Shown piece after piece: positions 6,017-34,674 of a stretch of DNA of 64,000 nt (positions are counted from its first letter, which is position 1; each line of letters opens with the position of its first letter). A program made the position numbers and the translations under genes. The notes beneath the pieces were generated by a model. It was not told the origin of the DNA and did not search any database. It saw only the letters and a list, made by a program, of their open reading frames with translations. The stretch covers positions 124,001-188,000 of the forward strand of contig NZ_JAEKIS010000004.1 in NCBI RefSeq assembly GCF_017311415.1. Direction: 5' to 3'. This DNA is from Salipiger abyssi. GTDB lineage: Bacteria; Pseudomonadota; Alphaproteobacteria; Rhodobacterales; Rhodobacteraceae.

Positions 6017-6019
6017 GCC

Positions 6020-6682
6020 ATGCTGCGCCGCCTTCTCCCCCTGCTCTGCGCTCTTGCCCTGACGCCGTTCGCCGCTCTGGCCGAGGCGCCCGAAGTGCTG
6101 ATCGAGGAACAGGCGCGGCAGAGTTGGGGCAACGAGCTGCCGCCCGAGGCGCGCATTCATGTGCGCTTTTCCGGCAGCCGGATCGACGAGGCCGATCTGA
6201 TCTCGGCCTTCTGGATGGATCGCGACAGCGGCCAGTTCCTCGCCAACGCGGTGACGCCCGAGGGGGTGACGCATCGCTTGCAGGGACGGCTGATGGCGGT
6301 GCAGGCGCTTCCGGTGCCCACCCGCCGGCTGATGCCGGGCGATCTGGTCGGGGTGGATGACGTGAAGACCGTCGAGCTGCCGGTAAAGCGTGTCGGGGCC
6401 TACACGATCACCGAGACTGACAAGCTCGAGGGCATGCAGGTGCGCCGGATGCTGGCGGCAGGCCGCCCGGTGATGACGCAATCGGTGATGGAGCCGCTGG
6501 TGATCGACCGGGGCGACAAGGTGAATATTCTATTTGACGACGGCCGGCTGGTTGTGACCGCCCCGGGCCGCGCGCTGGACGACGCTCATCGCGGGCAGGA
6601 GCTGCGCATCGTCAATCTGGTCAGCAACAAACCGCTTCAGGCCGTGGCCCGGGGCGAAGGACTCGTGGAGGTGATCCGATGA
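6020..6682 (+). CDS. flgA: Flagellar P-ring assembly chaperone FlgA
   Basis: FlgA is a periplasmic chaperone for FlgI P-ring assembly. The 220-residue protein has a signal peptide (LLPLLCALALTPFAALAEA) and a C-terminal SAF-like domain with VPTRRLMPGDLVGVDDV and AGRPVMTQSVMEP, typical of FlgA. The gene starts 3 bp after flgG and overlaps flgH by 4 bp (ATGA), so it is in the flgF-G-A-H operon. Confidence 0.93.
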   Translation: MLRRLLPLLCALALTPFAALAEAPEVLIEEQARQSWGNELPPEARIHVRFSGSRIDEADLISAFWMDRDSGQFLANAVTPEGVTHRLQGRLMAVQALPVPTRRLMPGDLVGVDDVKTVELPVKRVGAYTITETDKLEGMQVRRMLAAGRPVMTQSVMEPLVIDRGDKVNILFDDGRLVVTAPGRALDDAHRGQELRIVNLVSNKPLQAVARGEGLVEVIR

Positions 6683-7440
6683 CCGGTCTGCGCCCTGCCC
6701 TTCTCACCGCCTCCGTGCTGGCGATGCTCGCCGGCTGCGGCACGCCCGCCTTCGACCGCGATCCGGAACTGAGCCGCCTCGGTGTCGATCCCGGCGATCT
6801 GGCGGCGGCGCGCAGCGTCAACGTGCCGATGCCGCCCCCCGAGCAGGAGCGCATCCCCTACCGCGCCGAGGCCGCCTCACTCTGGGAGCGCGGCTCGGGT
6901 GGCTTTTTCGCCGATCAGCGCGCCACCACCATCGGCGACCTGCTGACCATCGTGATCGAGATCGACGACGAGGCCAGCCTGCGCAATGAATCGGAACGCT
7001 CGCGCACCGGTGGCAGCACCATGGCCTTCCCGAAATTCTTTGGCTACGGCTCGCAGATCGACAAGATCCTGCCCGGGGTCGAGCCGGAGGATCTGCCGTC
7101 GGACAATATCGTCGATATCACCTCGACCACCGGCGCCTCGGGCACGGGTGAGATCGACCGCAACGAGTCGATCTCGCTGCGCATGGCGGCGCTGGTGGTG
7201 CAGGAGCTGCCCAATGGCAATCTCGTCGTGGTCGGCCGGCAGGAGGTCAAGGTCAACGAAGAGCTGCGCGAGCTGCGCGTCTCCGGGATCATTCGGCCGC
7301 AGGATATCGACCGGGGCAACACCATCGCCTATGACAAGATGGCAGAGGCCCGGATCAGCTATGGCGGGCGCGGTTCCATCAGCCGGCAGCAAAGCCAGGG
7401 CTATGGCGAGGATGTCATGGACATTATCCTGCCTTATTGA
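6679..7440 (+). CDS. flgH: Flagellar L-ring lipoprotein FlgH
   Basis: FlgH forms the outer-membrane L ring around the rod. The 253-residue protein has a lipoprotein signal with lipobox LAGC (Cys20), then family segments FFADQRATTIGDLLTIVIEI, ELPNGNLVVVGRQEVKVNEE and SGIIRPQDIDRGNTI. The start overlaps the flgA stop (ATGA). It ends the contiguous flgFGAH block; the next gene has its own upstream box. Confidence 0.96.
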   Translation: MTGLRPALLTASVLAMLAGCGTPAFDRDPELSRLGVDPGDLAAARSVNVPMPPPEQERIPYRAEAASLWERGSGGFFADQRATTIGDLLTIVIEIDDEASLRNESERSRTGGSTMAFPKFFGYGSQIDKILPGVEPEDLPSDNIVDITSTTGASGTGEIDRNESISLRMAALVVQELPNGNLVVVGRQEVKVNEELRELRVSGIIRPQDIDRGNTIAYDKMAEARISYGGRGSISRQQSQGYGEDVMDIILPY

Positions 7441-7448
7441 ACCGGAAT

Positions 7449-7463
7449 TTAGTCATTATTTAA
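7449..7463. promoter_or_regulatory. CtrA-like binding site upstream of the fliL-like gene
   Basis: The plus strand reads TTAG-TCATTAT-TTAA, one base off the CtrA consensus TTAA-N7-TTAA. It lies 64 bp upstream of the fliL-like ATG, in an AT-rich 86-bp gap after flgH. In DNA this GC-rich, a chance match with exact 7-bp spacing is uncommon but possible. Confidence 0.5.
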
Positions 7464-7526
7464 ATAAACTATCGCCAGAATCCCGCGCCATACCAGAGGC
7501 TGAAGCAGCCAGTGCGGGATTCGGAA

Positions 7527-8144
7527 ATGAAAAAAGCTTTTGTCGCCTTTGCCACCCTGCCGGTCCTCTTTGGCGCCGCAGGCTATGGAGCCGGGCAGCT
7601 GCTGCCCAAGGCAGAGGAACACAGCCCGCAACACGCGGTCGAGGAGCCGGGTCGCTCCGATGCCGAAAAGGTGCTCGACCATATGGCGAGCCATGCGGTG
7701 GAGAATCCGGGTGCTGCGGTCGAGCAGGAACCGCACAAGCTGATCAAGCCGGCGGCCGAAGTCATCCACAAACCCGAGGCGTCCGAAGCGAGCCTCATCC
7801 GCAAGGATCCGCTCGGCGACAGCAGCGTGGTCAAGCTGGGCCGGATGAGCTTTCCCGTTTATCGCGCCAACAGCGTGACCTATGTGGTCTCCGAAGTCGG
7901 CGTGGCGATGCGCGATAAAAAGGTTGCCGAAGTGTTCAACGAGGCCGAAAACGCCTCGCGCCTGCGCGACGCGGTGTTGACCTCGATGCACAAGGCCGCA
8001 AGCAGCTCCTCGATGCGGGGCGTGAACATCGACACCCACAGCCTGTCGGAAACCCTGTCGACGGATCTCCGCGCAGGCTTTGGCGAGGATGTGTCGAACG
8101 TACTCTTTCTGTCGTTGGTCAAGGCGGACGTGCCGCGCAGCTGA
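7527..8144 (+). CDS. fliL: FliL-like flagellar basal-body-associated membrane protein
   Basis: FliL proteins are single-span inner-membrane proteins that surround the stator and modulate motor torque. The protein (205 residues from this ATG) has an N-terminal anchor (FVAFATLPVLFGAAGYGAGQ), an acidic linker, and a C-terminal domain with VVKLGRMSFPVYRANSVTYV, a long helix, and the ending FLSLVKADVPRS, which resembles FliL. Sequence similarity seen by eye is moderate, so the name is tentative. A GTG at 7512 would add five residues; the ATG at 7527 gives a cleaner anchor. It is convergent with flgD, 7 bp apart. Confidence 0.7.
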   Translation: MKKAFVAFATLPVLFGAAGYGAGQLLPKAEEHSPQHAVEEPGRSDAEKVLDHMASHAVENPGAAVEQEPHKLIKPAAEVIHKPEASEASLIRKDPLGDSSVVKLGRMSFPVYRANSVTYVVSEVGVAMRDKKVAEVFNEAENASRLRDAVLTSMHKAASSSSMRGVNIDTHSLSETLSTDLRAGFGEDVSNVLFLSLVKADVPRS

Positions 8145-21189: not shown

Positions 21190-22710
21190 TCAGTGGATTG
21201 CCGCGTACATGATCTTTTCCTCCGTCGCCTCGGACGAGGCCATCTCTTCCACGATCCGGCCGCCACGGGCCACGAGGACGCGGTCGGAGATCGACAGGAT
21301 TTCCGGCAGGTACGAGGAGATCACGATCACCGCCATGCCCCGGTCGGCAAGCTCGCGAATCGACCGGTGGATCTGCGGGATCGCGCCGACATCGACGCCG
21401 CGCGTGGGCTCGTCGAAAATCACCACCTTTGGGTCTTGCGCCAGAGACTTGGCGACCACGACTTTCTGCTGGTTGCCGCCGGAATACTCGATGATCTTCA
21501 GGCTGCGCTTGAGCGCCGAGATCCCAAGCGCCTCGACCCAACGGTCGGACACCTGCTTGCGCTCCTTCCGCGAATAGAGCCAGCGCCGATTCTTGGGCGA
21601 GGCGAGATGGCCCAGATAGATATTGTCGTCGGCGGTCATCGTCTCGAAGAAGCCGTCGAGCTTGCGGTCTTCGGTGATGTAGACGATGCCGTCGCGCACC
21701 GCCTGCCGGGGGACGCGGTAGCGGATCGGCTTGCCGTTGAGCAGGATCAGCCCGCCGCGCAGGAAGTTTCGCTTGCGCGCGCCGCAGATGATCTGGGCGA
21801 CCTCCGTGCGGCCCGCCCCCACCAATCCGGCCATGCCCACCACCTCGCCGGCATAGGCCGAGAAAGACATGTTCTTGACGACGCTGCCCATCGTCACGTT
21901 TTCCACGGTCAGAACACGGCTGTGCACATGCGGCGTTTCGGGTGCGGCTGGGCTTTCGCCGGTTAGCTCGACCTTGTTCATCGCGGTGACTTCGCGGCCC
22001 ACCATCAGCCGGATCACGCTTTCCCGCTCCAGCTCCTTCGCCGGCCCGGTATGCACCAGCTTGCCGTCACGAAGCACGGTGATCCGATCGGCCATCTCCA
22101 GCGCTTCTTCGAGCGCGTGGCTGATGAAAACAATGGCGACGCCCTGTGCGCGCAGGCGGTTGAAGAGATGGAATAGGTGCTGGATCTCCTCGGGCGTCAG
22201 GCTGGCGGTCGGCTCGTCGAAGATGATGACCCGGGCGTCATGCCGGACGGCGCGGGCGATCTCGACCATCTGCCGTTTCGCCGTACCCAGCGTCTCGACC
22301 AGCGCCAGCGGATCGACGTTGAAGTTCAGCGATTGCTGCGACTGCTGCGCGGCGATGTTGATCTTGCGGAAATCGGTGACGAGTTTTTCCATTCCGAGTT
22401 CGAGATTCTGCGCCACGGTCATCGACGGCACCAGGCTGGTTTCCTGATAGACCATCGCCACCCCGGCCTTCAGCGCCTCGCCGGGGGCGGCAAAGGAAAC
22501 CGGTTCGCCCGCCAGGACATATTCTCCGGACGAGAGCTGTACCGCACCCGCGATGATCTTGCAGAGCGTCGATTTGCCTGCGCCGTTTTCACCCAGAAGC
22601 GCGTGGATCTCGCCTGGGCGCAGATCGAAATCGACGCCCTCGATGGCATGCACGCCGCCATAGGTCTTGGTCCCCGCGACGATTTTCAGGATCGGCTCCA
22701 CCTCGCTCAT
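21190..22710 (-). CDS. CUT2-type sugar ABC importer, duplicated ATP-binding subunit
   Basis: The 506-residue protein has two fused nucleotide-binding domains, as in RbsA/XylG/MglA. Domain 1 has Walker A GENGAGKST and Walker B IIFDEPTASL. Domain 2 has a degenerate P-loop GLVGAGRTE, signature YSGGNQQKV and Walker B VVIFDEPTRGVDVG. This family energises uptake of sugars and related polar molecules. It is the last gene of a five-gene minus-strand operon and overlaps the beta-propeller gene by 4 bp. The longer frame to 23304 is an artefact; ATG at 22710 begins the conserved domain. Confidence 0.95.
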   Translation of the reverse strand: MSEVEPILKIVAGTKTYGGVHAIEGVDFDLRPGEIHALLGENGAGKSTLCKIIAGAVQLSSGEYVLAGEPVSFAAPGEALKAGVAMVYQETSLVPSMTVAQNLELGMEKLVTDFRKINIAAQQSQQSLNFNVDPLALVETLGTAKRQMVEIARAVRHDARVIIFDEPTASLTPEEIQHLFHLFNRLRAQGVAIVFISHALEEALEMADRITVLRDGKLVHTGPAKELERESVIRLMVGREVTAMNKVELTGESPAAPETPHVHSRVLTVENVTMGSVVKNMSFSAYAGEVVGMAGLVGAGRTEVAQIICGARKRNFLRGGLILLNGKPIRYRVPRQAVRDGIVYITEDRKLDGFFETMTADDNIYLGHLASPKNRRWLYSRKERKQVSDRWVEALGISALKRSLKIIEYSGGNQQKVVVAKSLAQDPKVVIFDEPTRGVDVGAIPQIHRSIRELADRGMAVIVISSYLPEILSISDRVLVARGGRIVEEMASSEATEEKIMYAAIH

Positions 22711-23828
22711 GCCGGAATCCTCCCTGTCTCGGTGTTTTCGGGTGTCATCGGCAGCCAAACAAGCTTTCGCCCGCCTTTCGACAGCACGATAAGCCGTCTG
22801 TCGCGCTCCACCATATCGGTGATCCCATGGGTCATGCCCGAGACCCGGCTGTGCAGGCTCTCGATGGCCTCGCCCTCTGCCGTCACCCGGGCGATTAGTC
22901 CGTAGGATCGCGGCGGCGCCCAGGGTTTCTGGATGCCCAGCTTCTTGATCCGCCCAACCTGGGTCGGTTCGCGGTAGTCGAAGTGATCGCCCATGGAGGG
23001 CCCGATCCAGAGCTCCGGCGCGATCTCCATCATCATCCGGGTCCGGAAAGCATCCTCGCGCAGCACGAATTCCGTTAGCTGCGTGCGCAGCGCGAAAAAT
23101 GCGATCCAGAAACCGCCCTCCGAGGCGGCGCGGATGCGCGACGGGTAGCCGGTGAAATTCTTCTGCAAGACCTGCATCCCGCTGCCGTCGCGCGCGATGC
23201 AGAGCAGACGGTGCGCCCAGGCCTCGGTGACCAGCAGCCGGTCGCCATCGGCCACCACGCCGGCGGGCCAGCGCAGGCCCCGGTGCAGGACGCGCGGTTG
23301 GCACAGCCCTGAGTCGCAGGCGATTACCCGCCCGGACCCTCGGTGTTTTTGCATCAGATCCCGCAGCCAGTCCTGCGGACCCACCGTTTGCGAGCCGTCG
23401 GTCAGAAAAACCTCTCCACCGGCATCGGTCGCAAGCGCGGTGACGCAGCCAAGAGGCGCGCCGTCCGCTTCGGTGAGACGGGCCTGTTCGGCGCCATCGC
23501 GGTCAAGTGCGACCACGCCGACCCCCGCAAGCGCGGCATAGATCAGCCCGTTGCCAAAGCTCAGCGCCCCGACCGGGGCCTCGCATTCGGCGAATTGCGT
23601 GGGGCTGCCGGGCGTGCCGGTGGAATAGCGGTATATGCGGTTGCCCGAAGATACGTATATCGCCCCCTCCGGGTCGGTGGTTAGGGCATCCGGGGCATCC
23701 AGTTCGGCAAAGGTGGTGGCCTCGTCCAGCCGTCCGTTCGGGGAAAAGCCGCCATCCAGAACCGGGATCGCATGCGGATCACGGTTCGGAAAGAAGATCC
23801 GCTCGGCAATTTCGCGCATCAGGGACAT
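22707..23828 (-). CDS. Stand-alone SMP-30/strictosidine-synthase-like beta-propeller with altered active site
   Basis: The 373-residue protein has propeller repeats (DALTTDPEGAIYVSSGNRIY, ALATDAGGEVFLTDGSQT, GVVADGDRLLVTEAWAHRLL). It aligns with the C-terminal domain of the adjacent permease fusion. At the positions where that domain has EGPEDV, FPNGV and FPDNI (metal/active-site Glu, Asn, Asp in SMP-30 relatives), this protein has DAPDAL, WPAGV and YPSRI. It is therefore probably not an active lactonase and may bind or regulate. There is no signal peptide. It lies 1 bp after the permease fusion and overlaps the ATPase gene. Confidence 0.85.
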   Translation of the reverse strand: MSLMREIAERIFFPNRDPHAIPVLDGGFSPNGRLDEATTFAELDAPDALTTDPEGAIYVSSGNRIYRYSTGTPGSPTQFAECEAPVGALSFGNGLIYAALAGVGVVALDRDGAEQARLTEADGAPLGCVTALATDAGGEVFLTDGSQTVGPQDWLRDLMQKHRGSGRVIACDSGLCQPRVLHRGLRWPAGVVADGDRLLVTEAWAHRLLCIARDGSGMQVLQKNFTGYPSRIRAASEGGFWIAFFALRTQLTEFVLREDAFRTRMMMEIAPELWIGPSMGDHFDYREPTQVGRIKKLGIQKPWAPPRSYGLIARVTAEGEAIESLHSRVSGMTHGITDMVERDRRLIVLSKGGRKLVWLPMTPENTETGRIPA

Positions 23829-23829
23829 A

Positions 23830-25980
23830 TCAGCCCGCCTTTCTCGCCGGGGCCGGCGCGGTCACGGCGGCGGGTGTTGTGCCGTCGCCATAATAGGAGT
23901 CCCAGCTGGTCCAGCCCGGATCTGCATCCGGCAGCGGCAGACGACCGATGCGGTTGTTCTCCAGCCCGCCGATATAGAGATAGCCCTTGTGCTCGCGCAT
24001 CGAGGTGATGGTGGGGTGGTTGGTCGCGCCCGGATCCCAGAGCGATTCTAGGATCTCGCCCTTGTCGTTGAACTTCAGCACGCAGCCGTAGTTGATGCCG
24101 GGGCAGAGCCACTCGTCGGGCGGGATCTGCTTCACCATGCGGACCCGGAACGACGGATCGGCCATCGCCAGATCGTAGACCGGCGAGCGCAGCCCGACCA
24201 GCGCCAGCCAGTAGGTGCCGTCCGAGGCGCGGTTGATATTGTCGGGAAAGCCCGGAAGGTTGTCGACCAGCACCTCAAGCGCGCCCTTGCGGGGCCCGTC
24301 GATCCAGTAGCGGTAGATCCGGCAGAGCCAGGTGCTTACCCAATAGACCGACTGGCCGTCATGGGCGACGCAGACGCCATTGGGGAAGGCGAGGTTCTTC
24401 AGCACGGTGCTGGTCTTGCCGCTGCGCGGATCGTGACAGACCAGACGCCCGTTGCCGCGCCCTTCGAACCCGTCCAGCGCCCAATCCGCCAGATCGTAGC
24501 GGGTCGAGGCGTCGCTGAAAAAGATCCGCCCGTCAGGGGCTACGTCGAGATCGTCGGCCAGCAGCAGGCGGGAATCGTCCTTGAGCCGGAAGCGGCTGCG
24601 CGTGGTCTCGTCGGTGACCTTGAACACGCTGCGGTCGGGCCGCACACCATAGACACCCATCCCGGCGACGCAGGCGAGAATGTTCTCGTCCTTGTCCATG
24701 GCCAGACCCAGCGGCCGGCCGCCGATGCGGGCGAATTCCTCGCGGATCTCGTAGTCGGGCGCGAGGAAGCGGATAATGGAGCCGTTGCGGTTGACGGTAT
24801 AAAGGTTGTCGTTGCGGTCGAGGATCACGTCCTCCGGCCCTTCGATCTTGCCAAGCGCGATGGGCTCGACATCGAGCAGCCGGTCGTTCTCGGCAAAGAC
24901 GGTGCCGCTGTCGCGCGCGATGGAGGGCGGCGGGGTGAAATCGACCAACGTGGGCGAGACATAGATCTTTTGCAGGATCTTGCTCTTGTGCTTCACGAAC
25001 TTGACGTTGAACCCAACCGCGAGCAGCAGCAGAAACCCGATGGACGCTGTGGTGAGGCTGCCATGGGTGCCGAGCTGCACCAGCCCGTTGATCAGCAGAA
25101 AGATGATCGCCGCGCCGATCAGCGCCCGGCTGGTGCTGCCGCGGCCGCCGGCCAGGCTGATGCCGCCTACCACGGCGGCGGCCAGCGCGTTCACCTCCCA
25201 GCCGACGCCGGTATCGGTGCCGGCGCTGTTCTGGCGCGCGGCGTAGAGGAAGCCTGCGAAAGAGGCCAGCATTCCCGACAGCACATAGGCCAGGAACAGA
25301 GACAGCCGCACGTTGATGCCGGCGTGACGGGCAGCCTTGCGGCTCGACCCCACCGCCATGATATGCACGCCCGGTTTCACCCGTGTCAGAAAGAAATGCG
25401 CGGCAAAGGCCACGGCCAGCAGGCAGACCATATTCACCGGAACGCCGAGCAAATCGCCGATCCCGACGAAATCCCAGGCGGCATTGTCGACATAGGCGCT
25501 GGCGAGGTCCGTGGCGTAGGCGACGGTCACCAGCTCGTAAAAGGCGCGCACAACGATCAGCACCACCATCGTGGTCAGGAACGGGCGCGTCTTGGCATAG
25601 GCGATGAGGCCGCCATTCGCCGCGCCGATCAATGCGCCCCAGGCCAGCGCGCCTGCGAAGGCCACGGAGACGGGCAGCTCCAGCACCATGGCGAGGTAAA
25701 GCGCGATGAAATTCGCCATGGCAAACACGGCGCCCACCGACAGGTCGATCCCGCCCGACAGGATCGACAGCGCCATGGCCATGGCGACCAGCGCCTGTTC
25801 GGGAAAGCTGCGCATCAGCTGCTGAAGCTGCTGGATCGAGCCGTAATCCGGGATCGCCACGACGAAGGCGAGAAAGATCGCGCACATCAAAAGGAACGGC
25901 ACCGCCGGTTCCATCCAGCGCTTTTCCAGCAATTCGCCGATCAGCAATTGCGGCGAAATGCGGTACCAGAGTCTGCGCAT
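23830..25980 (-). CDS. CUT2 ABC permease fused to an SMP-30/strictosidine-synthase-like beta-propeller
   Basis: The 716-residue protein is continuous in one frame. Residues about 25-335 are an RbsC-type permease with many spans (ALSILSGGIDLSVGAVFAMA, VGGISLAGGRGSTSRALIGA). A short linker (KHKSKILQKIYVSPTLVDF) leads to a six-bladed propeller (about 375-700) with KIEGPEDVILDRNDNLYTV, DDLDVAPDGRIFFSDAS, FPNGVCVAHDGQSVYWV and GFPDNINRASDGTYWLALVG. These keep the Glu, Asn and Asp expected for metal binding in SMP-30-type lactonases. CUT2 permeases have a cytoplasmic C-terminus, so the propeller should act on incoming substrate; its activity is inferred. Confidence 0.92.
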   Translation of the reverse strand: MRRLWYRISPQLLIGELLEKRWMEPAVPFLLMCAIFLAFVVAIPDYGSIQQLQQLMRSFPEQALVAMAMALSILSGGIDLSVGAVFAMANFIALYLAMVLELPVSVAFAGALAWGALIGAANGGLIAYAKTRPFLTTMVVLIVVRAFYELVTVAYATDLASAYVDNAAWDFVGIGDLLGVPVNMVCLLAVAFAAHFFLTRVKPGVHIMAVGSSRKAARHAGINVRLSLFLAYVLSGMLASFAGFLYAARQNSAGTDTGVGWEVNALAAAVVGGISLAGGRGSTSRALIGAAIIFLLINGLVQLGTHGSLTTASIGFLLLLAVGFNVKFVKHKSKILQKIYVSPTLVDFTPPPSIARDSGTVFAENDRLLDVEPIALGKIEGPEDVILDRNDNLYTVNRNGSIIRFLAPDYEIREEFARIGGRPLGLAMDKDENILACVAGMGVYGVRPDRSVFKVTDETTRSRFRLKDDSRLLLADDLDVAPDGRIFFSDASTRYDLADWALDGFEGRGNGRLVCHDPRSGKTSTVLKNLAFPNGVCVAHDGQSVYWVSTWLCRIYRYWIDGPRKGALEVLVDNLPGFPDNINRASDGTYWLALVGLRSPVYDLAMADPSFRVRMVKQIPPDEWLCPGINYGCVLKFNDKGEILESLWDPGATNHPTITSMREHKGYLYIGGLENNRIGRLPLPDADPGWTSWDSYYGDGTTPAAVTAPAPARKAG

Positions 25981-26055: not shown

Positions 26056-27069
26056 CTAGTTGGAGGCGGCAAAGCAGTATTCGCGGTCTTCCGGCCCCGA
26101 AACCCAGTAGTTCGTGGTGTAGAAGGCGTATTGCGCGCTGCCCGCCGGGCGGTCGTCCTGCAACAGCGCCAGCGCCGCCGCGACGATCTGGTTGGCCTGC
26201 CGGTCGGCGGTGTAGGAGAGGTTCTTGGTGTAGAGCCCCTTCTCGACCATCTCGCAATCGGCGGGCTGGCCGTCGCTCGCCACGAAGATATTCACCTTGC
26301 CCTGCAACCCGGCATTCTTCACCGCCTGCGCGGCCCCCGCCGTCTGCGGCCCCCAGACGCTGAGGATCGCGCAGAGATCGGGGTTCTGCTGAAGCACATT
26401 GGTGGTGATCTCCGAGGCCTTGTTGGCGTCCCAGTTCACCGGCTGCGACGAGACCACGCTCATCGACGCATCGCTTTCCAGAAGTTCGGTCGCCGCGACG
26501 GTCATGTCGAGCGAATAGGCGGCGGTGGCCTCGCCCTGAAGGATCGCCACCTTGCCCGACCCCTTGCCGCCGCCGCAGGTATCTATGGCCTCCTGCGCCA
26601 GCATCCGGCCCATGCGCGGCACATCGGCGCCGACATAGGCATCGGTCAGCGTGTTCGACGCCATATTGACCTGAATGACCTTGATCCCCTCGCGCATCGC
26701 GCGTTTCAGCTCACGCGCGAGCAGTGTGGTCGTGGGGTTCTGAACGATCAGGATATCCGGCTTCTCGTTGATCAGCGTGCTGACCGCCTGAAGCTGAATG
26801 TCGGATTTGAAGTTGGGATCGCGCACCACGAAATTGATGCCGTGATCCTCGAAGTTCGACTTCATCACGCGCGTCCACTCGGATTCCAGAACGCCCAGCC
26901 AGATCGGCACCCAGGCGATGGTCTTGCCCTCGGTGGCGGCCTGGAATTTGTCCATGAGCTCCGACCTCGGATCGGCGGCCTGTCCGCTGCCCGCCGAAAG
27001 GGCCACCGCCCCGGCGGTCAGCGCAGCGGCGAGGGTCCGGCCCATTGCGCCCGTCAGTAATTTCCGCAT
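26056..27069 (-). CDS. CUT2 ABC importer, periplasmic substrate-binding protein
   Basis: The 337-residue protein has a signal peptide (GRTLAAALTAGAVALSAGSG, cleaved near QAA-DP) and a periplasmic-binding-protein type 1 (RbsB-like) fold: PDILIVQNPTTTLLARELKR, IKVIQVNMASNTLTDAYVGA, QNPDLCAILSVWGPQTAGAA and VNIFVASDGQPADCEMVEKG. It captures the substrate for the neighbouring permeases. It sits between the two permease genes, 75 bp upstream of the fusion gene and 69 bp after the other permease. The ligand cannot be read from sequence. Confidence 0.94.
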   Translation of the reverse strand: MRKLLTGAMGRTLAAALTAGAVALSAGSGQAADPRSELMDKFQAATEGKTIAWVPIWLGVLESEWTRVMKSNFEDHGINFVVRDPNFKSDIQLQAVSTLINEKPDILIVQNPTTTLLARELKRAMREGIKVIQVNMASNTLTDAYVGADVPRMGRMLAQEAIDTCGGGKGSGKVAILQGEATAAYSLDMTVAATELLESDASMSVVSSQPVNWDANKASEITTNVLQQNPDLCAILSVWGPQTAGAAQAVKNAGLQGKVNIFVASDGQPADCEMVEKGLYTKNLSYTADRQANQIVAAALALLQDDRPAGSAQYAFYTTNYWVSGPEDREYCFAASN

Positions 27070-27138: not shown

Positions 27139-28134
27139 TCAGTCTCCCTGTTTGGCGGTCTCGTCATCCCTTGGATGCAGGTAGCTGTCGAAGACGATCG
27201 CAAAGAGCAGCACGCCGCCCTTGATCACGTTTTGCACCTGAATGTTGAGATTCATGATCGTCATCGCGTTCAGCAGCACGCCGATCAGCAGCGTGCCCGC
27301 GATCACGCTCATCACATTGCCGCGCCCGCCGACCAGGCTCACCCCTCCCAGCACGACCACGAGGATGACATCGAAGATCATCGTCGACTCAGCGATCTGG
27401 AGGTGCATCAGCGAGGTGGAGGCGACCATTACGACCCCGGCGACATAGCCGATGGCGGCGCTAAGCCCGTATTCGAGCATGGTCAGGGGCCGCGTCGCGA
27501 TGCCTGCAAGCCTGGCGGCCTCGGCATTGTCGCCATGGGCATAGATGAAATGCCCCAGCACGGTTTTCGACAGGAATAGGTGGAGCAGCAGCGCGCAGAC
27601 GGCAAAGACGATCACCGGCACCGGCAGCCCGCCGGCAACGGTTCCGCCGAGCGCCTGAAGCGTGTCAGAGCTATGCTCAAGAAACACCTGATAATGGGGT
27701 ACGACAAGCGCGCGGGTCAGGCCGAGCAGCAGCAGGCTCGATGCCAGTGTCGTAAAGAGCGGCGGAATCTCGATGACCGAGACCAGAAAGCCGTTCAGGA
27801 TTCCGGCCAGTACCGCGATCAGCAGGCCGATCAGCAAGCTTGGCCCCTCCGGCAGGCCGGCATTGATCAACGAGACGGCAATCGCGGCGGAGACCGCGAG
27901 AATGGCGATCTGAGACAGGTCGATGCCCCGCCCGATGACGACCACCGCCATGCCCAGCCCCAGAATACCGAGGATCGAGATACCCCGTGCCAGGGTGAAC
28001 AGATTGCCAACCGACAGAAACCCGGGAAGCGCGGCGCTGAGCGTCACGAAGATGATGGCGGTCAGTATCACGACAATCATGGCCTGACTTGGCCGGTAAT
28101 GGCGCCAGGCGCCGGGCATCGCCGCGTCTCTCAT
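27139..28134 (-). CDS. CUT2 ABC importer permease (RbsC-like)
   Basis: The 331-residue integral membrane protein has 8-10 hydrophobic segments and the family motif GILGLGMAVVVIGRGIDLSQ plus VVVLGGVSLVGGRGNVMSVI. It is the first gene of the ABC operon. I chose ATG 28134 (MRDAAMPGAW) because a strong GGAGGAGAG ribosome-binding site precedes it; the frame extends to 28257 but would run into the divergent gntR gene. It lacks the propeller domain found on the second permease. Confidence 0.94.
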   Translation of the reverse strand: MRDAAMPGAWRHYRPSQAMIVVILTAIIFVTLSAALPGFLSVGNLFTLARGISILGILGLGMAVVVIGRGIDLSQIAILAVSAAIAVSLINAGLPEGPSLLIGLLIAVLAGILNGFLVSVIEIPPLFTTLASSLLLLGLTRALVVPHYQVFLEHSSDTLQALGGTVAGGLPVPVIVFAVCALLLHLFLSKTVLGHFIYAHGDNAEAARLAGIATRPLTMLEYGLSAAIGYVAGVVMVASTSLMHLQIAESTMIFDVILVVVLGGVSLVGGRGNVMSVIAGTLLIGVLLNAMTIMNLNIQVQNVIKGGVLLFAIVFDSYLHPRDDETAKQGD

Positions 28135-28206
28135 AGACTCTCCTCCCGCTCCTCCACGGAGACGGCCGCTTTTAAGCCGTCTAAGGATTGTATAGTGCAT
28201 CTTATG

Positions 28207-28216
28207 TGTTATAACA
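28207..28216. promoter_or_regulatory. Palindrome TGTTATAACA between the ABC operon and a divergent gntR gene
   Basis: A perfect 10-bp palindrome of the form N-GT-N4-AC-N sits in the 107-bp divergent gap, 26 bp before the GntR start. GntR/FadR-type operators have GT and AC arms around a short centre, so this is a candidate auto-regulatory operator controlling both directions. The surrounding 28180-28230 is AT-rich, consistent with overlapping promoters. Confidence 0.45.
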
Positions 28217-28241
28217 AGTGACATATAAAAGGATTGCATGC

Positions 28242-28988
28242 ATGCCCACGCGTTCAAACGGGTCCGATACCAGTTCCGGAACCTTTGGTGTTCAGATCAG
28301 CCGCGAAAGCCTTAGCCAGCAGGCCTATGTCGCGATCAGGACGTCGCTCAAGCGCAGCGTTCTGAAGCCCGGGCAGAAGCTGGTGGCGCGGCAGGTTGCC
28401 GACGAGCTGGGCATCAGCGTGACCCCGGTGCGCGAATCGCTGCTGCGGCTCGCGTCGGAGCGCGCGCTGGCCATGGACGACCGGGGGACCGTGTTCGTTC
28501 CCGAGCTGACGGTGCAGCGCTGCACCGATATTCGCGACCTGCGCATGCTGGTCGAGGGCGAGGCGGCGGCCCGCGCCGCGCTGCGCGTGAGCGACGAGGA
28601 TATCGCCGAGCTGGAGCGGATCCATGCACGCTATGAATCCACCGAAAGCGCGCAGGATTACAGTCAGGCGCTGATGCACAACGAGGATTTCCATTTTGCA
28701 CTCTGCCGCTTCGCCGACTCGCCGGTGATGTTCGGTGTCGTTGAAAACCTCTGGATCCAGTTCGGCCCGGCCCTGTCTTTTCTTTATGACGGTGGCACCC
28801 GCCCCTTTCACGGCACGACCCACGGGCATCTGCAAGTCATCGAAGCGCTTCGCGATAAAGACGCCGAAGCCGCCCGCAGCGCGATTTCCCGCGACATTCT
28901 GATCGGCGGCAGCGCCATCGTCGAGCGTCTTGAAGAGTTGGAGTCGCCCGCCGGTCAGGGCGCACAAGCAGGAGGAACCTCGGTATGA
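28242..28988 (+). CDS. GntR-family regulator, FCD (FadR) subgroup
   Basis: The 248-residue protein has an N-terminal winged helix (SQQAYVAIRTSLKRSVLKPG, VADELGISVTPVRESLLRLA) and a C-terminal FCD ligand-binding domain with metal-site residues in a helical bundle (RDLRMLVEGEAAARAALRVS, HNEDFHFALCRFADS, HLQVIEALRDKDAEAARSAI). FCD regulators sense carboxylic acids. ATG at 28242 was chosen over GTG 28218 because AAAGGA precedes it. It is divergent from the ABC operon and overlaps the acyl-CoA synthetase by 4 bp, so it probably controls uptake and activation of the substrate. Confidence 0.93.
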   Translation: MPTRSNGSDTSSGTFGVQISRESLSQQAYVAIRTSLKRSVLKPGQKLVARQVADELGISVTPVRESLLRLASERALAMDDRGTVFVPELTVQRCTDIRDLRMLVEGEAAARAALRVSDEDIAELERIHARYESTESAQDYSQALMHNEDFHFALCRFADSPVMFGVVENLWIQFGPALSFLYDGGTRPFHGTTHGHLQVIEALRDKDAEAARSAISRDILIGGSAIVERLEELESPAGQGAQAGGTSV

Positions 28989-30619
28989 CGGCACGGCAGG
29001 AAACCACATGGCCCGACGGGCCGGGCGGGGCGTTGCGGCCCGAGACGCATTACGACGGGCGCGACATGCTGTGCTACGCCTCCCGTCCCGCCACTCTGTC
29101 CGAGATGCTGGCCGGTTGTGTCCGCGACTTTCCGGACCGTCTCGCGATCGCCGAAGGGCTCCGGCTCAGCTATCGCGAGCTGGACGAGATCGTCTCGGCG
29201 CTCGCCGCCGGACTGAAGGCGCAGGGGGTCGGAGTTGGCGGCAAGGTTGCCCTGTTCATGACCAACCGCTGGCAGCTGCTGGCCTGCGTCTATGCCTGCG
29301 CCCGCATCGGGGCTGTTGCCGTGCCGCTTTCGGTCCGGCTGGCACGGGCCGAGCTTGCCTTTCTGCTGAACGATTGCGGGGCCTCTGTCCTCGTCTTCGA
29401 GAATAAGCTGGCAGAGGTGCTGCCCGCCGCCGACACCGTACCGGCGCTGCAATACCGGTTCTGCGTCGATGAAACCGCCGCGCCCGCACGTCCCTTCGAC
29501 GAACTGCTGGGCGCCGGGCACGATACCGCGCCGGCGGTGGGCACAGACGAAGACGTTGCCGTCATTCTCTACACCTCCGGCACGACCGGCAGGCCGAAGG
29601 GGGCGATGCTGACCCATCTCGGCATCATCCATTCCTCGCTGAGCTTCGCGCGCTGCTTTGAGCTGACCGAGCGCGACAAGGCGCTGATCGCGGTGCCGTT
29701 GTCGCATGTCACGGGCCTGGTCGGCGTCGCCTTCGCGGCGATGTGCGTCGGCGGTGGCGTCGCGCTGATGCGCGAGTCGTTCGAGCGTCGTGCCTTCCTG
29801 GCTATTGCGAGTCGCGAAGAGATCACCTTTTCGATCCTTGTGCCGACCATCTACAGCCTGATCGCCATGACGCCGGAGCTTGACGACACCGATCTGTCGA
29901 GTTGGCGGATCGGCGGGTTCGGCGGCGCGCCGATGCCGGTGGCGACGATCGAGCGGATCGCCGAGAAACTGCCCAACCTCATGCTCGTGAACGCCTATGG
30001 CGCGACGGAGACCACCTCGCCCACCACGGCGATGCCGCTGTCGGAATGGCGCACTCACACAAACAGCGTCGGCAAGGTTGTGCCCGGCGCCGATATTCGT
30101 GTGGTCGATACGCAGGGCAACGATGTGCCCGCGGGAGAAACCGGGGAACTGCTGATCGCCGGTCCGATGGTGATCCCGGGATATCTCAACCGGCCCGAGG
30201 CCAATGCTTTCGATTTCGTCGGGGGTTACTGGCGCTCCGGAGATATCGGCTCTGTCGACGAGGCGGGGTTTGTGCGGATCATGGACCGCAGCAAGGACAT
30301 GATCAATCGCGGCGGCTTCAAGGTGTTCAGCGCCGAGGTGGAGGATGTGCTGTGTCATCACGACTCCGTCGCGGAATGCGCCGTGGTCGGCACGCCCGAT
30401 CCGGTGCTCGGTGAGCGGGTTCATGTCTTTATCGTACCGCGCGATGCGCATGGCATCGACGAGGCGGCGCTGCGCAGCTTCTGTGCCGAGCGCCTCTCCG
30501 ATTACAAACGGCCCGAGAGCTACACGGTGCTGGAGACGCCGCTGCCGCGCAACAACAACGGCAAGATCCAGAAACATACGCTGCGCGACATGCTTCTGGC
30601 GCGCGCCGAACAGGCCTAG
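28985..30619 (+). CDS. AMP-forming acyl-CoA synthetase (class I adenylate-forming)
   Basis: The 544-residue enzyme converts a carboxylic acid, ATP and CoA to an acyl-CoA. It has the P-loop-like LYTSGTTGRPKGAMLTHLG, the A5 motif NAYGATETTSPTT, the hinge region WRSGDIGSVDEAGFVRIMDR and DMINRGGFKVFSAEVED, and the catalytic Lys in NNNGKIQKHTL. The acid specificity cannot be read by eye. It overlaps gntR (ATGA) and precedes the APH-type kinase, the same neighbourhood as LvaE with LvaA in the Pseudomonas levulinate pathway. Confidence 0.94.
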   Translation: MTARQETTWPDGPGGALRPETHYDGRDMLCYASRPATLSEMLAGCVRDFPDRLAIAEGLRLSYRELDEIVSALAAGLKAQGVGVGGKVALFMTNRWQLLACVYACARIGAVAVPLSVRLARAELAFLLNDCGASVLVFENKLAEVLPAADTVPALQYRFCVDETAAPARPFDELLGAGHDTAPAVGTDEDVAVILYTSGTTGRPKGAMLTHLGIIHSSLSFARCFELTERDKALIAVPLSHVTGLVGVAFAAMCVGGGVALMRESFERRAFLAIASREEITFSILVPTIYSLIAMTPELDDTDLSSWRIGGFGGAPMPVATIERIAEKLPNLMLVNAYGATETTSPTTAMPLSEWRTHTNSVGKVVPGADIRVVDTQGNDVPAGETGELLIAGPMVIPGYLNRPEANAFDFVGGYWRSGDIGSVDEAGFVRIMDRSKDMINRGGFKVFSAEVEDVLCHHDSVAECAVVGTPDPVLGERVHVFIVPRDAHGIDEAALRSFCAERLSDYKRPESYTVLETPLPRNNNGKIQKHTLRDMLLARAEQA

Positions 30620-30695
30620 CGCGCGGCATCGGCAAACAGACCGGCGTGCCGAAGCGCGCCGGGGCTTCGCATCACAGAGAAGTGGAAACCGCACA

Positions 30696-31736
30696 GTGAC
30701 CGAGACAATCAGAACCCAGAGCCAGTCGCCCGATATTGCTGCGCTGGAACGCTGGATGGGCGAGACGGTCGAGGGGTTTCGCGGCCCGATAAGTCTGTCG
30801 AAATTCGAGGGCGGGCAATCCAATCCGACATTCCGGATCGACGCAGCGTCGGGCAGTTATGTCCTGAGGCGCAAACCGCTTGGCCCGGTGCTTCCGAGCG
30901 CGCATGCGGTGGATCGCGAATTCCGGGTGCTCTCGGCGATGCGCACCGCCGGCGTGCCCGTGGCGCGGGTAAGGGCGCTGTGCATGGATGAGTCCGTTCT
31001 CGGCAGCATCTTCTATGTCATGGACTATGTCGAAGGCCGCGTGTTCTGGGATCCGCGCCTGCCGACGCTCAGCACCGAAGAGCGCGGCGCAATCTTCGCC
31101 TCGATGAACGACATCATCGCGCAGATCCACAGCCTTGATCCGGACAGCATCGGGCTGACCGGCTTTGGCCGCAGCGAGGATTATCTCAAGCGCCAGATCG
31201 CCCGCTGGACCCGCCAGTTCGACGCCTCGCGCACCGGTCCGAACCCGGCGATGGATCGCCTGATCGACTGGCTGCCGGCGCATGTCCCGCCGGAGCATCC
31301 CGCCCGCGTCGTGCATGGCGACTACCGGCTCGACAATGTGCTGATACATCCGACCGAGCCCCGGATCGTCGCCGTGCTCGATTGGGAGCTTTCCACGATA
31401 GGCAATCCGATTGCGGATTTCGCCTATCACATGCTGAGCTGGCGCTTTGCCCCGGAGCTGTTCCGCGGCATGGCGGGCGAAGACCTCGCCGCGCTCGGGA
31501 TTCCGAGCGAGCGGACCTATCTCGACCGCTACCTCGGGATCACGGGCTTGAAACCGCCGGAAGACTGGGATTTCTACATGATCCTGAGCATGTTCCGTAT
31601 TGCCTCGATTCTTCAGGGCATCGCCAGGCGGTCGGCCGACGGCAGTGCCGCCGATGCCGATGCGGCGACGGTCGGTGCAAAAGCCATCCCGATTGCCGAG
31701 ATGGCGTGGAAGCTGGCAGAGCAGCGTGGCGGCTGA
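30696..31736 (+). CDS. APH-type phosphotransferase of the LvaA/ACAD10-11 kinase group
   Basis: The 346-residue protein has an aminoglycoside-phosphotransferase/choline-kinase fold: RKPLGPVLPSAHAVDREFRV (a signature of the acyl-CoA-associated subgroup), Brenner motif VVHGDYRLDNVLIHP with catalytic Asp, and VLDWELSTIGNPIADFAYHM with the metal-binding Asp. In Pseudomonas LvaA and mammalian ACAD10/11, such kinases phosphorylate 4-hydroxyacyl-CoA so that an acyl-CoA dehydrogenase homologue can eliminate phosphate. The start is GTG 30696, since MTETIRTQSQ lacks an upstream ATG. Its acyl-CoA context strongly favours this role over drug resistance. Confidence 0.88.
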   Translation: MTETIRTQSQSPDIAALERWMGETVEGFRGPISLSKFEGGQSNPTFRIDAASGSYVLRRKPLGPVLPSAHAVDREFRVLSAMRTAGVPVARVRALCMDESVLGSIFYVMDYVEGRVFWDPRLPTLSTEERGAIFASMNDIIAQIHSLDPDSIGLTGFGRSEDYLKRQIARWTRQFDASRTGPNPAMDRLIDWLPAHVPPEHPARVVHGDYRLDNVLIHPTEPRIVAVLDWELSTIGNPIADFAYHMLSWRFAPELFRGMAGEDLAALGIPSERTYLDRYLGITGLKPPEDWDFYMILSMFRIASILQGIARRSADGSAADADAATVGAKAIPIAEMAWKLAEQRGG

Positions 31737-32463: not shown

Positions 32464-33240
32464 ATGTCCCCATTGTTTTCGCTCGATGGCAAGACCGCCA
32501 TCATCACCGGATCGTCGCGCGGGATCGGTTACGCGATTGCGCTGGAAATGGCCCGGGCCGGGGCGCGCGTCGTGGTGTCCTCGCGCAAGCAGCCCGCCTG
32601 TGAGGAGGCCGCGGCCCGGATCAATGCCGAGACAGGCCGCGATGCCGCCACCGCGCTGGCGGCGAGTATCTCGGACAAGGCGGCGCTGCAATCGCTGGTC
32701 AAGCAAACCGAAGCGAGGCTCGGCCCGGTCGACATTCTGGTCTGCAATGCCGCCTCCAACCCTTATTACGGCCCCCTGACCGAGATCCCCGACGAGCGTT
32801 TCCGCAAGATCCTCGACAACAACGTCATCGCCAATAACTGGCTCATCGGCATGGTGCTGCCGCAGATGCGCGCCCGCAAGGAGGGCGCCATCGTCATCGT
32901 GTCTTCCATCGGCGGGTTGGTGGGCTCGCCCGTTATCGGTGCCTACAACATCTCCAAGGCCGCCGACATGCAGCTCGCCCGCAACTTGGCGGTCGAACTT
33001 GGCCCGGACAATATCCGCGTGAACTGCATCGCGCCGGGGCTGATCAAGACAGATTTCTCAAAGGCGCTTTGGGACGATCCCGAAACCTACGGCACCTATA
33101 TGCGCGCCACGCCGCTCAAGCGCATGGGCGCGCCGAATGAAATTGCGGGCGCGGCGGTGTTCCTCGCCGCGCCCGCCGGGGCGTTCGTGACCGGCCAGAC
33201 CCTGGTCGTGGATGGAGGAACGACGATCCAGGGAGTCTGA
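32464..33240 (+). CDS. Short-chain dehydrogenase/reductase (SDR)
   Basis: The 258-residue protein is a classical SDR with cofactor motif ITGSSRGIGYAIA, NAA-type motif VCNAASNPYYG, catalytic Ser in VIVSSIGGLVGS, Tyr-x3-Lys in YNISKAAD and C-terminal PAGAFVTGQTLVVDGGTTI. Arg in the glycine-rich loop suggests NADP(H) is possible. Within this cluster it may reduce or oxidise a keto/hydroxyacyl group, as LvaD does in the levulinate pathway; that is inference. It follows the second gntR gene by 35 bp and converges on an acyl-CoA dehydrogenase gene. Confidence 0.92.
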   Translation: MSPLFSLDGKTAIITGSSRGIGYAIALEMARAGARVVVSSRKQPACEEAAARINAETGRDAATALAASISDKAALQSLVKQTEARLGPVDILVCNAASNPYYGPLTEIPDERFRKILDNNVIANNWLIGMVLPQMRARKEGAIVIVSSIGGLVGSPVIGAYNISKAADMQLARNLAVELGPDNIRVNCIAPGLIKTDFSKALWDDPETYGTYMRATPLKRMGAPNEIAGAAVFLAAPAGAFVTGQTLVVDGGTTIQGV

Positions 33241-33255
33241 CCGGACAGGGGCCGC

Positions 33256-34530
33256 TTACGCGGTTCCCGTTGCGATGCTTGTCAGCAAAGGATCGCCCCA
33301 TTGTGCCCCGCCGCTCGGCTGGTTGCTGCCGGACTGACGCTTGAATTCCAGCCTGGCGAGCTGGTCGCGATGTACCTCGTCGGGCCCGTCGGCCAGACGC
33401 AGCAGGCGCGCGGTCGCATAGGCGGCCGCGAGGCCGAAATCATTGCTGGTGCCGCCGCCGCCAAAGGCCTGAATCGCCCAGTCGATGACCTTTTGCGCCA
33501 TGTTCGGCACCGCGATCTTGATCATCGCGATCTCGGGCTTGGCCTGCTTGTTGCCGACCGTGTCCATCATATGGGCCGCGCGCAGCGTCAGCAGGCGCGA
33601 CTGCTCGATCATGATGCGCGCTTCCGCCACCCGCTCGCGGGTGACCGAATGCTCCGAGATCGGCTTGCCGAAGGCGAAGCGCTGTTCGGTGCGCAGGCAC
33701 ATCTTGGCCAGCGACCGCTCGGCCAGCCCAATCAGACGCATGCAGTGGTGGATGCGCCCCGGCCCAAGCCGGCCCTGCGCGATCTCGAAACCGCGCCCCT
33801 CGCCCAGAAGGATGTTCGACGCGGGCACGCGGACATCTTCGAAGATCACTTCCGCCGCCCGGTCGGGCACGCCGTAATAGCCGAAGACCGGCAGCGAGCG
33901 CAGCACTTTCACACCGGGCGTGTCCTTGGGCACCAGGATCATCGACTGCTGCCGATAGGTCTCCGCCTCCGGGTCGGTCTTGCCCATGAAGATCATGATC
34001 TTGCAGCGCGGATCGGTCGCGCCTGTCGTGTACCATTTGCGCCCGTTGATGACATATTCGTCGCCCTCGCGAACGATGGAACTTCGGATATTGCGCGCAT
34101 CCGACGAGGCAACATCGGGCTCGGTCATGGCAAAGGACGACCGGATTTCGCCGGCGAGCAGCGGTTTGAGCCATTTCTCCTGATGCTCGGGCGTGCCGTA
34201 GCGGGCGATGACCTCCATATTGCCGGTGTCCGGCGCCGAGCAGTTGAACACCTCCGGCGCCAGATGCGACCGGCCCATGATCTCGCAAAGCGGCGCGTAT
34301 TCGAGATTGCTCAGCCCGGCGCCGTAATCGCTTGCCGGCAGGAACAGGTTCCACAGACCGGCGGCGCGGGCGAGCGGTTTCAGCTCCTCGACGATGGGCT
34401 GCACGCCCCAGGGGCCGATCTCTTCGGACTCCCGGTAAAAGCGCGTTTCGTTGGGGTAGATATGCTCCTCCATGAAATCGAGCAGCTTCTCTTCAAGCTC
34501 CACCGTCCGGTGGGATTTTTCGGGGATCAT
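33256..34530 (-). CDS. Acyl-CoA dehydrogenase of the ACAD10/11-LvaC type
   Basis: The 424-residue flavoprotein has [34 protein letters not shown] and [20 protein letters not shown], the typical signature of ACAD10/11-like enzymes, and ends with [20 protein letters not shown] and [14 protein letters not shown]. Such enzymes can work with the APH kinase to turn 4-phosphoacyl-CoA into enoyl-CoA. The segment usually read as FGYDDAPHGHAEV is [13 protein letters not shown] here, so specificity may differ. Start chosen at 34530 ([10 protein letters not shown]), preceded by GAAGGAG. A TATAAT -10 box (34600-34595) overlaps a palindromic operator upstream. Confidence 0.9.
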
Positions 34531-34582
34531 CCAGGTCTCCTTCATAGATGATATCGACCGCGCCAGAACGCTGCCATACATA

Positions 34583-34597
34583 ATCGTCAGACGAATT
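34583..34597. promoter_or_regulatory. Operator copy 1: palindrome TCGTCAGACGA at the acyl-CoA dehydrogenase promoter
   Basis: The sequence ATCGTCAGACGAATT contains the perfect 11-bp inverted repeat TCGTC-A-GACGA. It overlaps the minus-strand TATAAT at 34600-34595 and lies 53-67 bp before the start codon, so a bound protein would block transcription. The pattern fits GntR/FadR-type sites (GT-M-N-K-AC). An exact 15-bp copy occurs at 44905-44919. Confidence 0.7.
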
Positions 34598-34674
34598 ATA
34601 CCGACGAAAACCCGCGAGTCGAACGCTTTCGTCACCCGCGCCTTTCGAATTTCATTGCCGTTCCGCGCCCGGGT

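Follow-up and report, generated by a model that had tools for sequence, protein, structure and literature searches.

A five-gene CUT2-type ABC importer cassette in which one permease is fused to a six-bladed propeller with hydrolase-type site residues and is followed by a second propeller lacking them

The 64,000-nt stretch of Salipiger abyssi DNA analyzed here (the window; GCF_017311415.1, NZ_JAEKIS010000004.1, positions 124,001-188,000 of the forward strand) encodes an ATP-binding cassette (ABC) importer of the CUT2 type, one of whose two permeases continues in the same frame into a six-bladed propeller related to strictosidine synthases and SMP-30. The fusion gene is part of a minus-strand cassette transcribed in the order permease 2, binding protein, fusion, second propeller (prop2) and double ATPase (Table 1, where coordinates are positions within the window). 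Judged by its residues, the fused propeller retains a hydrolase-type site and prop2 has lost it. We read the cassette as importing a lactone or ester, with a hydrolase tethered on the cytosolic side and a second propeller that resembles a pseudoenzyme; catalysis, substrate and channeling are the parts of this reading that we infer, and we hold the reading as a whole with evenly balanced confidence.

The fusion occupies one uninterrupted frame of 716 codons, ATG to stop, running from 25980 down to 23830; an earlier note on this DNA had described the fusion and passed over its strand, the separate prop2 gene (22707-23828, minus strand) and the ligand position D476. In Pfam, the BPD_transp_2 profile (PF02653) covers residues 55-321 with 103.7 bits against a cut-off of 26.8. 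It is followed by SSL_N (PF20067; residues 361-405, 48.5 bits against 18.9), SGL (PF08450; residues 389-596, 49.3 bits against 26.3) and Str_synth (PF03088; residues 476-562, 68.9 bits against 25), three family profiles above their curated cut-offs that place the C-terminal part among the strictosidine-synthase-like (SSL)/SGL propellers. The motifs EGPEDV, FPNGV and FPDNI, which the note had picked out as carrying the Glu, Asn and Asp of the family, are present in the translation. An AlphaFold2 model built on a 52-row alignment has a mean predicted local distance difference test score (pLDDT) of 85.5 and a predicted template modeling score (pTM) of 0.64; it has helices up to residue 339 and then 24 β-strands between residues 372 and 682, forming six blades of four, the number predicted beforehand. 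Residues 321-350 are modeled with pLDDT 61-72, and the linker residues Y340 and P343 are invariant across the 52 rows of alignment A3.

The affinity of the propeller had been given as lactonase-like. The SGL profile is matched above its cut-off, but the closest proteins of solved structure are strictosidine synthases and rice TGW6 rather than gluconolactonases: Foldseek matches the fused propeller to strictosidine synthase with TMt up to 0.83, to TGW6 with 0.81, and to the lactonase RPA3624, DFPase and PON1 with 0.77, 0.73 and about 0.65, respectively, and TGW6 is its top PDB sequence match. With strictosidine synthases as the top fold matches, the propeller might be thought to make a bond, as they do, rather than to break one. 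We consider such a synthase very improbable indeed, because the ligand positions of the hydrolases are retained and the best PDB sequence match, TGW6, is an ester hydrolase.

How widespread is this architecture? The fusion was sought in 398 genomes sampled evenly from the phylum of the window, with two candidates scored per genome, and by a pattern scan of genome contigs that kept the best 80 of at least 570 relatives, ranked by likeness to the window family, and gave 79 loci. It is present in 11 of the 398 genomes, every one of the class of the window; 12 further genomes hold a stand-alone propeller relative without the fusion, and one, G360, the permease only. All 79 loci from the contig scan hold the fused frame, among them loci of Bradyrhizobium, Rhodopseudomonas, Burkholderiaceae, Panacagrimonas and Amycolatopsis, and plasmid records with the fusion come from Shinella, Paraburkholderia, Celeribacter, Pantoea and Sulfitobacter. 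The cassette thus reaches across Alpha-, Beta- and Gammaproteobacteria and Actinomycetota. Wide stretches were obtained for 100 loci including the window, most of them found with the fusion as query; 96 contain the fused frame (fusion loci), 95 of them distinct after L061, a copy of L040, was dropped, and the other four (L049, L050, L051 and L056) had been fetched as non-fusion relatives. Seven more fused loci confirmed from the 398 genomes bring the total to 102 distinct fused loci. The worry attached to the original proposal, that a missing stop or a frameshift had joined two genes, or that the assembly was wrong, is ruled out by this recurrence as one frame in 102 distinct loci and two phyla; nothing was found in favor of such an artefact, and we give it practically no weight.

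The cassette is as constant as the fusion. At 83 of the 95 distinct fusion loci, a script located all four partners in the order expected, and L093 has them likewise, with a second binding protein. At the remaining 11 a contig end falls on the side of the missing partner, and the seven additional loci are all complete, so that every uncut locus (91 of 91) is a five-gene cassette. Two loci are counted as complete although one partner is irregular: L072, whose ATPase frame is short (331 residues), and the Bradyrhizobium locus L067, where permease 2 is split over two frames (5867-7876) and the copy may be broken or misassembled. The second binding protein of L093 forms a tandem pair with the first (5726-7910) in an otherwise normal cassette. 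In the reverse direction, a search of the identical 398 genomes with a prop2 profile, five candidates scored per genome, gave 19 matches of at least 398 bits, the next being 157, and all 19 lie directly behind a fusion.

Propellers of this type also occur alone. The stand-alone relatives (L022-L033 and L056) are 36-43% identical to the fused propeller and share its metal-site residues, and none of the cassette partners lies beside them in the wider loci L050, L051 and L056; the one at L056 adjoins genes for a GntR regulator and ribonuclease D. The existence of such a stand-alone group in other genomes, together with the lower model confidence around the linker, would suit a propeller that hydrolyzes without any coupling to transport, the fusion setting only its stoichiometry and location. 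We think this arrangement improbable: among the 100 wide loci, which are mostly finds of the fusion query and include the contig loci drawn from the best 80 of at least 570 relatives, there is no cassette with permease and propeller unfused, and the linker keeps invariant residues.

The ligand positions of propeller metallohydrolases (Glu / Asn or Asp / Asn / Asp-Asn) are all occupied accordingly in the fused propeller. They were located by profile alignment with TGW6, whose site positions were taken from passages of PMC10958001; its chain numbering, shifted by 28, was consistent at all four positions. Loss of these residues would have undone the earlier proposal; instead E383, N534, D580 and N581 are each kept in 95 of 95 fusions, and D476 is Asp in 92 and Asn in three. 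Since Asp predominates so clearly at position 2, where TGW6 has Asn, the fusion usually carries a second acidic residue. SMP-30, DFPase and PON1 have a site of the same type, Glu/Asn(Asp)/Asn/Asp. All 13 stand-alone bacterial relatives retain E383, D476, N534 and D580, and 11 of them N581, the other two having Gly.

The second propeller has taken a different course. Prop2 matches the fused propeller profile with E 2.8e-49, and its model (pLDDT 87.8, pTM 0.87) has strictosidine synthase as its top fold match. The metallohydrolase ligand positions are nevertheless gone: among 90 copies, position 1 is Asp in 77 and Glu in seven, the N534 position is Asn in just 20, the D580 position is never Asp (Ala in 44, Gly in 27, Ser in 16, Cys in three) and 87 copies have Arg in place of N581. 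The window copy has Thr in place of D476. Prop2 has a conserved set of its own, with W154, D157, K301, P305 and S308 in 90 of 90 copies and W204 in 88. It also evolves faster: in a midpoint-rooted tree built from 16 fused propellers, 15 copies of prop2 and 13 stand-alone relatives, the window and L040 copies are separated by a path of 1.06 for prop2 and of 0.25 for the fused propeller.

On which side of the membrane does the fused propeller lie? The positively charged loops, and the KFVKHKSK stretch that follows the last helix, suggest that the C-terminus is cytoplasmic, the side the earlier note had given for CUT2 permeases. In G360 (L049, 7433-12069), a fusion-type permease, 52% identical to the fusion permease over residues 29-323, continues in a single 846-residue frame into an ABC ATPase instead. 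ABC ATPases work in the cytoplasm, and because this relative carries one at the same end, the C-terminal end of the permease is cytoplasmic; by analogy with the relative and from the charge pattern, the propeller end of the fusion is placed on the cytoplasmic side, and a periplasmic propeller is ruled out. G360 also has a binding protein and a permease 2 of the matching kind; its locus of 19 kb yielded no propeller. In a midpoint-rooted tree of 52 of the 93 fusion permeases, the G360 permease nests on a long branch in the fusion clade, next to the subclade of the window (96/90), and its permease 2 also groups next to that subclade (98/83, among ten permease 2 rows). Because both permeases group within the fusion clade, the propellers were probably lost once in the G360 lineage and are separable from transport.

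Why would an importer carry a propeller at its channel exit? The fusion, the cassette, the retained and lost site residues and the gene linkage are read directly from the sequence, and from them we infer catalysis, substrate, a partnership of the two propellers and a coupling of hydrolysis to transport. The periplasmic binding protein would deliver a small lactone or ester, which the two permeases and the double ATPase would carry inward; the tethered, putatively metal-dependent propeller of the strictosidine-synthase-like group would open it at the channel exit, yielding a hydroxy acid that would be unable to leak back and would be ready for activation with CoA. Prop2 probably works alongside this propeller as a pseudoenzyme that contributes to binding, gating or specificity. 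That the substrate is imported and then hydrolyzed had already been suggested for a lactone; the suggestion fits the acyl-CoA neighborhood of some cassettes, where a hydroxy acid product would be used, but with strictosidine synthases and the ester hydrolase TGW6 as the closest relatives of solved structure, the substrate could equally be an ester. A bolder version, which we entertain tentatively and with clearly less confidence, is an ABC-type group translocation, in which a metallohydrolase in the transmembrane subunit would open the cargo at the exit, a γ-lactone in the lineage of the window, and the dead sister propeller would shape the chamber. We know of no other importer class with such a metallohydrolase built into its transmembrane subunit. 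Tethering, sensing and channeling would look alike in sequence.

The substrate clue comes from the neighboring genes. Beyond the cassette, the window encodes a GntR/FCD regulator, an AMP-forming acyl-CoA ligase, an APH-family kinase resembling the kinase half of ACAD11, an SDR oxidoreductase and an ACAD11-type acyl-CoA dehydrogenase (ACAD). For the ACAD, 4hr3, named a putative acyl-CoA dehydrogenase, scores slightly above ACAD11 2wbi, and for the kinase another deposited protein, 3dxp, scores above ACAD11. The kinase is the single match of its type in the genome at E 1e-10, and the ACAD11-type ACAD is present in one copy, the next ACAD being 30% identical; both lie at most 6.4 kb from the cassette edge. 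By sequence, the pair expected of a 4-hydroxyacyl-CoA module is thus present in the window. Passages of PMC11342911 describe how LvaA/LvaC and ACAD10/11 phosphorylate 4-hydroxyacyl-CoA and eliminate the phosphate, leading 4-hydroxy acids into β-oxidation, and mention that the 4-hydroxy acids used there were prepared by γ-lactone opening. Because the neighboring ligase, ACAD11-type kinase and eliminase match this route, the substrate in the lineage of the window is likely a γ-lactone or 4-hydroxy-acid ester; the γ-lactone reading follows from the gene neighbors in that lineage and on one plasmid. We reject a complete levulinate-type lva operon in the window, as DUF6285 (PF19802) has no match in the genome of the window; DUF6285 we take to be LvaB. 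It was also suspected in a 157-residue neighbor at L057, to which Pfam assigns no family.

Six acyl-CoA marker types were then counted beside 19 fusion loci from the 11 genomes and beside 45 control CUT2 loci, which come from nine of these genomes (none from G000 or G191) and were hand-picked rather than random, mostly high-scoring, among the listed matches of a 190-match search. Six of the 19 fusion loci have at least one marker, as do three of the 45 controls (Fisher p 0.016); without the window the fusion count is 5 of 18 (p 0.037). By type, the counts are 4 of 19 against 1 of 45 for the ligase, 4 against 0 for enoyl-CoA hydratase, 2 against 0 for ACAD, 1 against 0 for CoA transferase III, 0 against 2 for thiolase and none on either side for MaoC. 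There is no clear difference in SDR genes (6 of 19 against 12 of 45) or aldehyde dehydrogenase (3 of 19 against 2 of 45). Markers also occur at 39 of 51 genome-contig fusion loci of at least 17 kb, which are mutually related. An ACAD scoring more than 400 bits to that of the window, a line chosen after the scores were seen, is found at 8 of 102 fusion loci (the window, L057, L058, L059, L063, L067, L068 and L069) and at none of the 45 controls; that of L089 falls just short with 385 bits. The ACAD of L057, on a Sulfitobacter plasmid and in another subclade, is of the ACAD11 type (425 bits, compared with 139 for the next type) and shares its stretch with an APH-family protein and a ligase. By coordinates, the closest ACAD homolog (73-78%) lies within the cassette locus in the four genomes behind L058, L059, L063 and L067, and away from the cassette in G191; for the genome behind L062, there is none in the fetched locus. 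Two further ACADs are weakly ACAD11-like and were not counted as 4-hydroxy-acid modules, those of L110 (245-249 against 172 bits) and L093 (186-189 against 160 bits), and another APH protein fits the L093 kinase better than ACAD11. None of the other fetched cassettes has a kinase close to that of the window (746 bits) beside it. At eight further fusion loci there is an APH-family protein, but not a near relative of that kinase (54-71 bits, or hit by the L057-protein query only).

Several observations weigh against an importer with a tethered hydrolase or against the substrate assigned to it. As single markers, only ligase and enoyl-CoA hydratase reach p<0.05, uncorrected, and all six are absent from 13 of the 19 same-genome fusion loci, which rules out a generic acyl-CoA neighborhood for all cassettes. 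Seven of the eight loci with a window-like ACAD belong to one subclade and therefore represent few independent events, and among the fetched loci of the subclade of the window an ACAD11-like kinase adjoins the cassette in the window alone, being encoded apart elsewhere. The genome of the window carries three cassettes, and the two others (L038 and L039), also complete, have none of the acyl-CoA markers. Because of these two, and because the Pantoea plasmid cassette adjoins sugar-type genes, the substrate is probably not one compound and differs between cassettes. Placement of permease relative to propeller is uncertain in the fusion model (pTM 0.64). The TGW6 site, similar to that of the fusion and less acidic, has no bound calcium in the passages of PMC10958001, and therefore the site residues alone do not prove a metal. 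Finally, the G360 lineage keeps the transporter without either propeller, although as one long-branched case.

Some of these points would suit a sensor, in which the exit propeller binds the imported substrate and throttles the pump by trans-inhibition, prop2 being the second half of the sensor, and no turnover is needed. Soluble regulatory domains cause trans-inhibition in other ABC importers, a site-less paralog accompanies each uncut fusion, the transporter can exist without propellers, and the available passages on TGW6 (PMC10958001) report no metal. However, ligand positions kept in all 95 fusions are more than ligand binding would call for, and the stand-alone relatives share these positions though they are not fused to a permease; we therefore regard a sensor as unlikely.

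Table 1. Features of the cassette and its neighbors, in window coordinates.
Feature	Positions	Strand	Basis
Fusion protein, CUT2 permease + SSL/SMP-30 six-bladed propeller	23830..25980	-	716 residues, single frame, Pfam, AlphaFold2, 95 + 7 fused loci
Permease part, residues 1-339, last helix 307-339	24964..25980	-	PF02653, helices, charge pattern
Linker, residues 340-361	24898..24963	-	alignment A3, pLDDT
Propeller part, residues 362-690	23911..24897	-	Pfam, Foldseek
Predicted metal-site position 1, E383 (TGW6 Glu-59 position)	24832..24834	-	E in 95/95 fusions
Predicted metal-site position 2, D476 (TGW6 Asn-167 position)	24553..24555	-	D in 92 fusions, N in the other 3
Predicted metal-site position 3, N534 (TGW6 Asn-226 position)	24379..24381	-	N in 95/95 fusions
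Predicted metal-site position 4, D580-N581 (N581 = TGW6 Asn-272 position)	24238..24243	-	D and N in 95/95 fusions
Second CUT2 permease (permease 2)	27139..28257	-	PF02653 108.8 bits vs 26.8; true start probably downstream of listed TTG
CUT2-type substrate-binding protein (Peripla_BP_4)	26056..27069	-	PF13407 142.9 bits
Prop2, separate second propeller protein, 373 residues, metal site lost	22707..23828	-	profile match, residue counts, model
Double ABC ATPase, AraG/RbsA-like, 506 residues; start overlaps prop2 stop	21190..22710	-	domain matches
Divergent GntR/FCD regulator	28218..28988	+	domain match
AMP-forming acyl-CoA ligase	28985..30619	+	PF00501 304.8 bits
APH-family kinase, like ACAD11 kinase half	30345..31736	+	ACAD11 8v3v residues 8-354, E 2.7e-75; true start probably downstream of listed frame
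SDR oxidoreductase	32464..33240	+	domain match
ACAD11-type acyl-CoA dehydrogenase	33256..34635	-	ACAD11 2wbi E 1.3e-137 vs 1.9e-41 for next ACAD type

Neighbors elsewhere are varied. Those of L038 and L039 differ from the genes beside the cassette of the window, and L038 has an aldehyde dehydrogenase and an MmgE/PrpD protein. An annotated degradative hydroxymethylglutaryl-CoA reductase gene touches the cassette start on the Shinella plasmid (L052, 6567-7892). At L080 (13341-15722), a flavoprotein with FAD_binding_3 and Oxidored_FMN domains is encoded a few hundred bases behind the ATPase, and its cluster occurs in six loci; two-domain proteins of this kind are annotated as salicylyl-CoA hydroxylases, which hints at an aromatic substrate there.

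We found no description of the fusion in a library of open-licence papers, searched for the fusion itself and for its parts. The available passages of PMC9007349 hold nothing on it, and those of a Bradyrhizobium regulon paper (PMC6710368) name an 'SMP-30/gluconolactonase/LRE' gene, blr6437, that may or may not be this fusion. Plasmid records label these proteins 'SMP-30/gluconolactonase/LRE family', 'ABC transporter permease' or 'RbsC', and under the reading proposed here proteins so labeled would gain a testable role. The architecture is thus visible to automatic annotation; we regard it as a variant of the CUT2 ABC importers, and the lactonase as a candidate and not a proven one. To our knowledge, hardly any enzyme is known to form part of the membrane subunit of an ABC importer, and a cassette that combines uptake with a retained hydrolase site and a site-less sister propeller would make vectorial import-hydrolysis testable in ordinary soil bacteria.

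Like the CUT2 importers RbsABC, AraFGH, XylFGH and AlsABC, the cassette combines a binding protein of the Peripla_BP_4 family, permeases of the BPD_transp_2 family (both above the PF02653 cut-off) and a double ATPase in one operon. Unlike them it has two permeases that differ from each other, an enzyme-like domain at the C-terminus of one of these, and a soluble propeller in addition, and it falls far below the cut-offs of the NCBIfam equivalogs for the sugar systems, none of which is reached. The fused propeller shares fold, sequence and the four ligand positions with SSL proteins and with TGW6, the rice indole-3-acetic acid (IAA)-glucose hydrolase (8kg3), from which it differs in being fused to a permease, in its cytoplasmic location and in having mostly Asp rather than Asn at position 2. 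SMP-30/gluconolactonase, DFPase and PON1 hydrolases have the propeller fold in common with it, with PF08450 over cut-off, but are more distant than the SSL proteins and have no transporter attached. Natural fusion has also linked a propeller lactonase to an unrelated domain, likewise without a transporter, in DrSOD of Deinococcus, a Cu/Zn superoxide dismutase joined to a lactonase with calcium-dependent 2-coumaranone hydrolysis, according to passages of PMC12362111. Group translocation by the phosphotransferase system (PTS) would also alter its substrate chemically on entry, although by phosphorylation rather than by hydrolysis with an ATP-driven pump, and in Pfam the five cassette proteins match no PTS domain. 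The ligase, APH kinase and ACAD11-type ACAD beside the cassette of the window are reminiscent of the LvaABCDE and ACAD10/ACAD11 pathway, from which the window departs in the missing DUF6285. We know of no dedicated ABC importer for that pathway; through the cassette, uptake of a lactone would be connected to the 4-hydroxy-acid route, which mammalian ACAD10/11 also serve.

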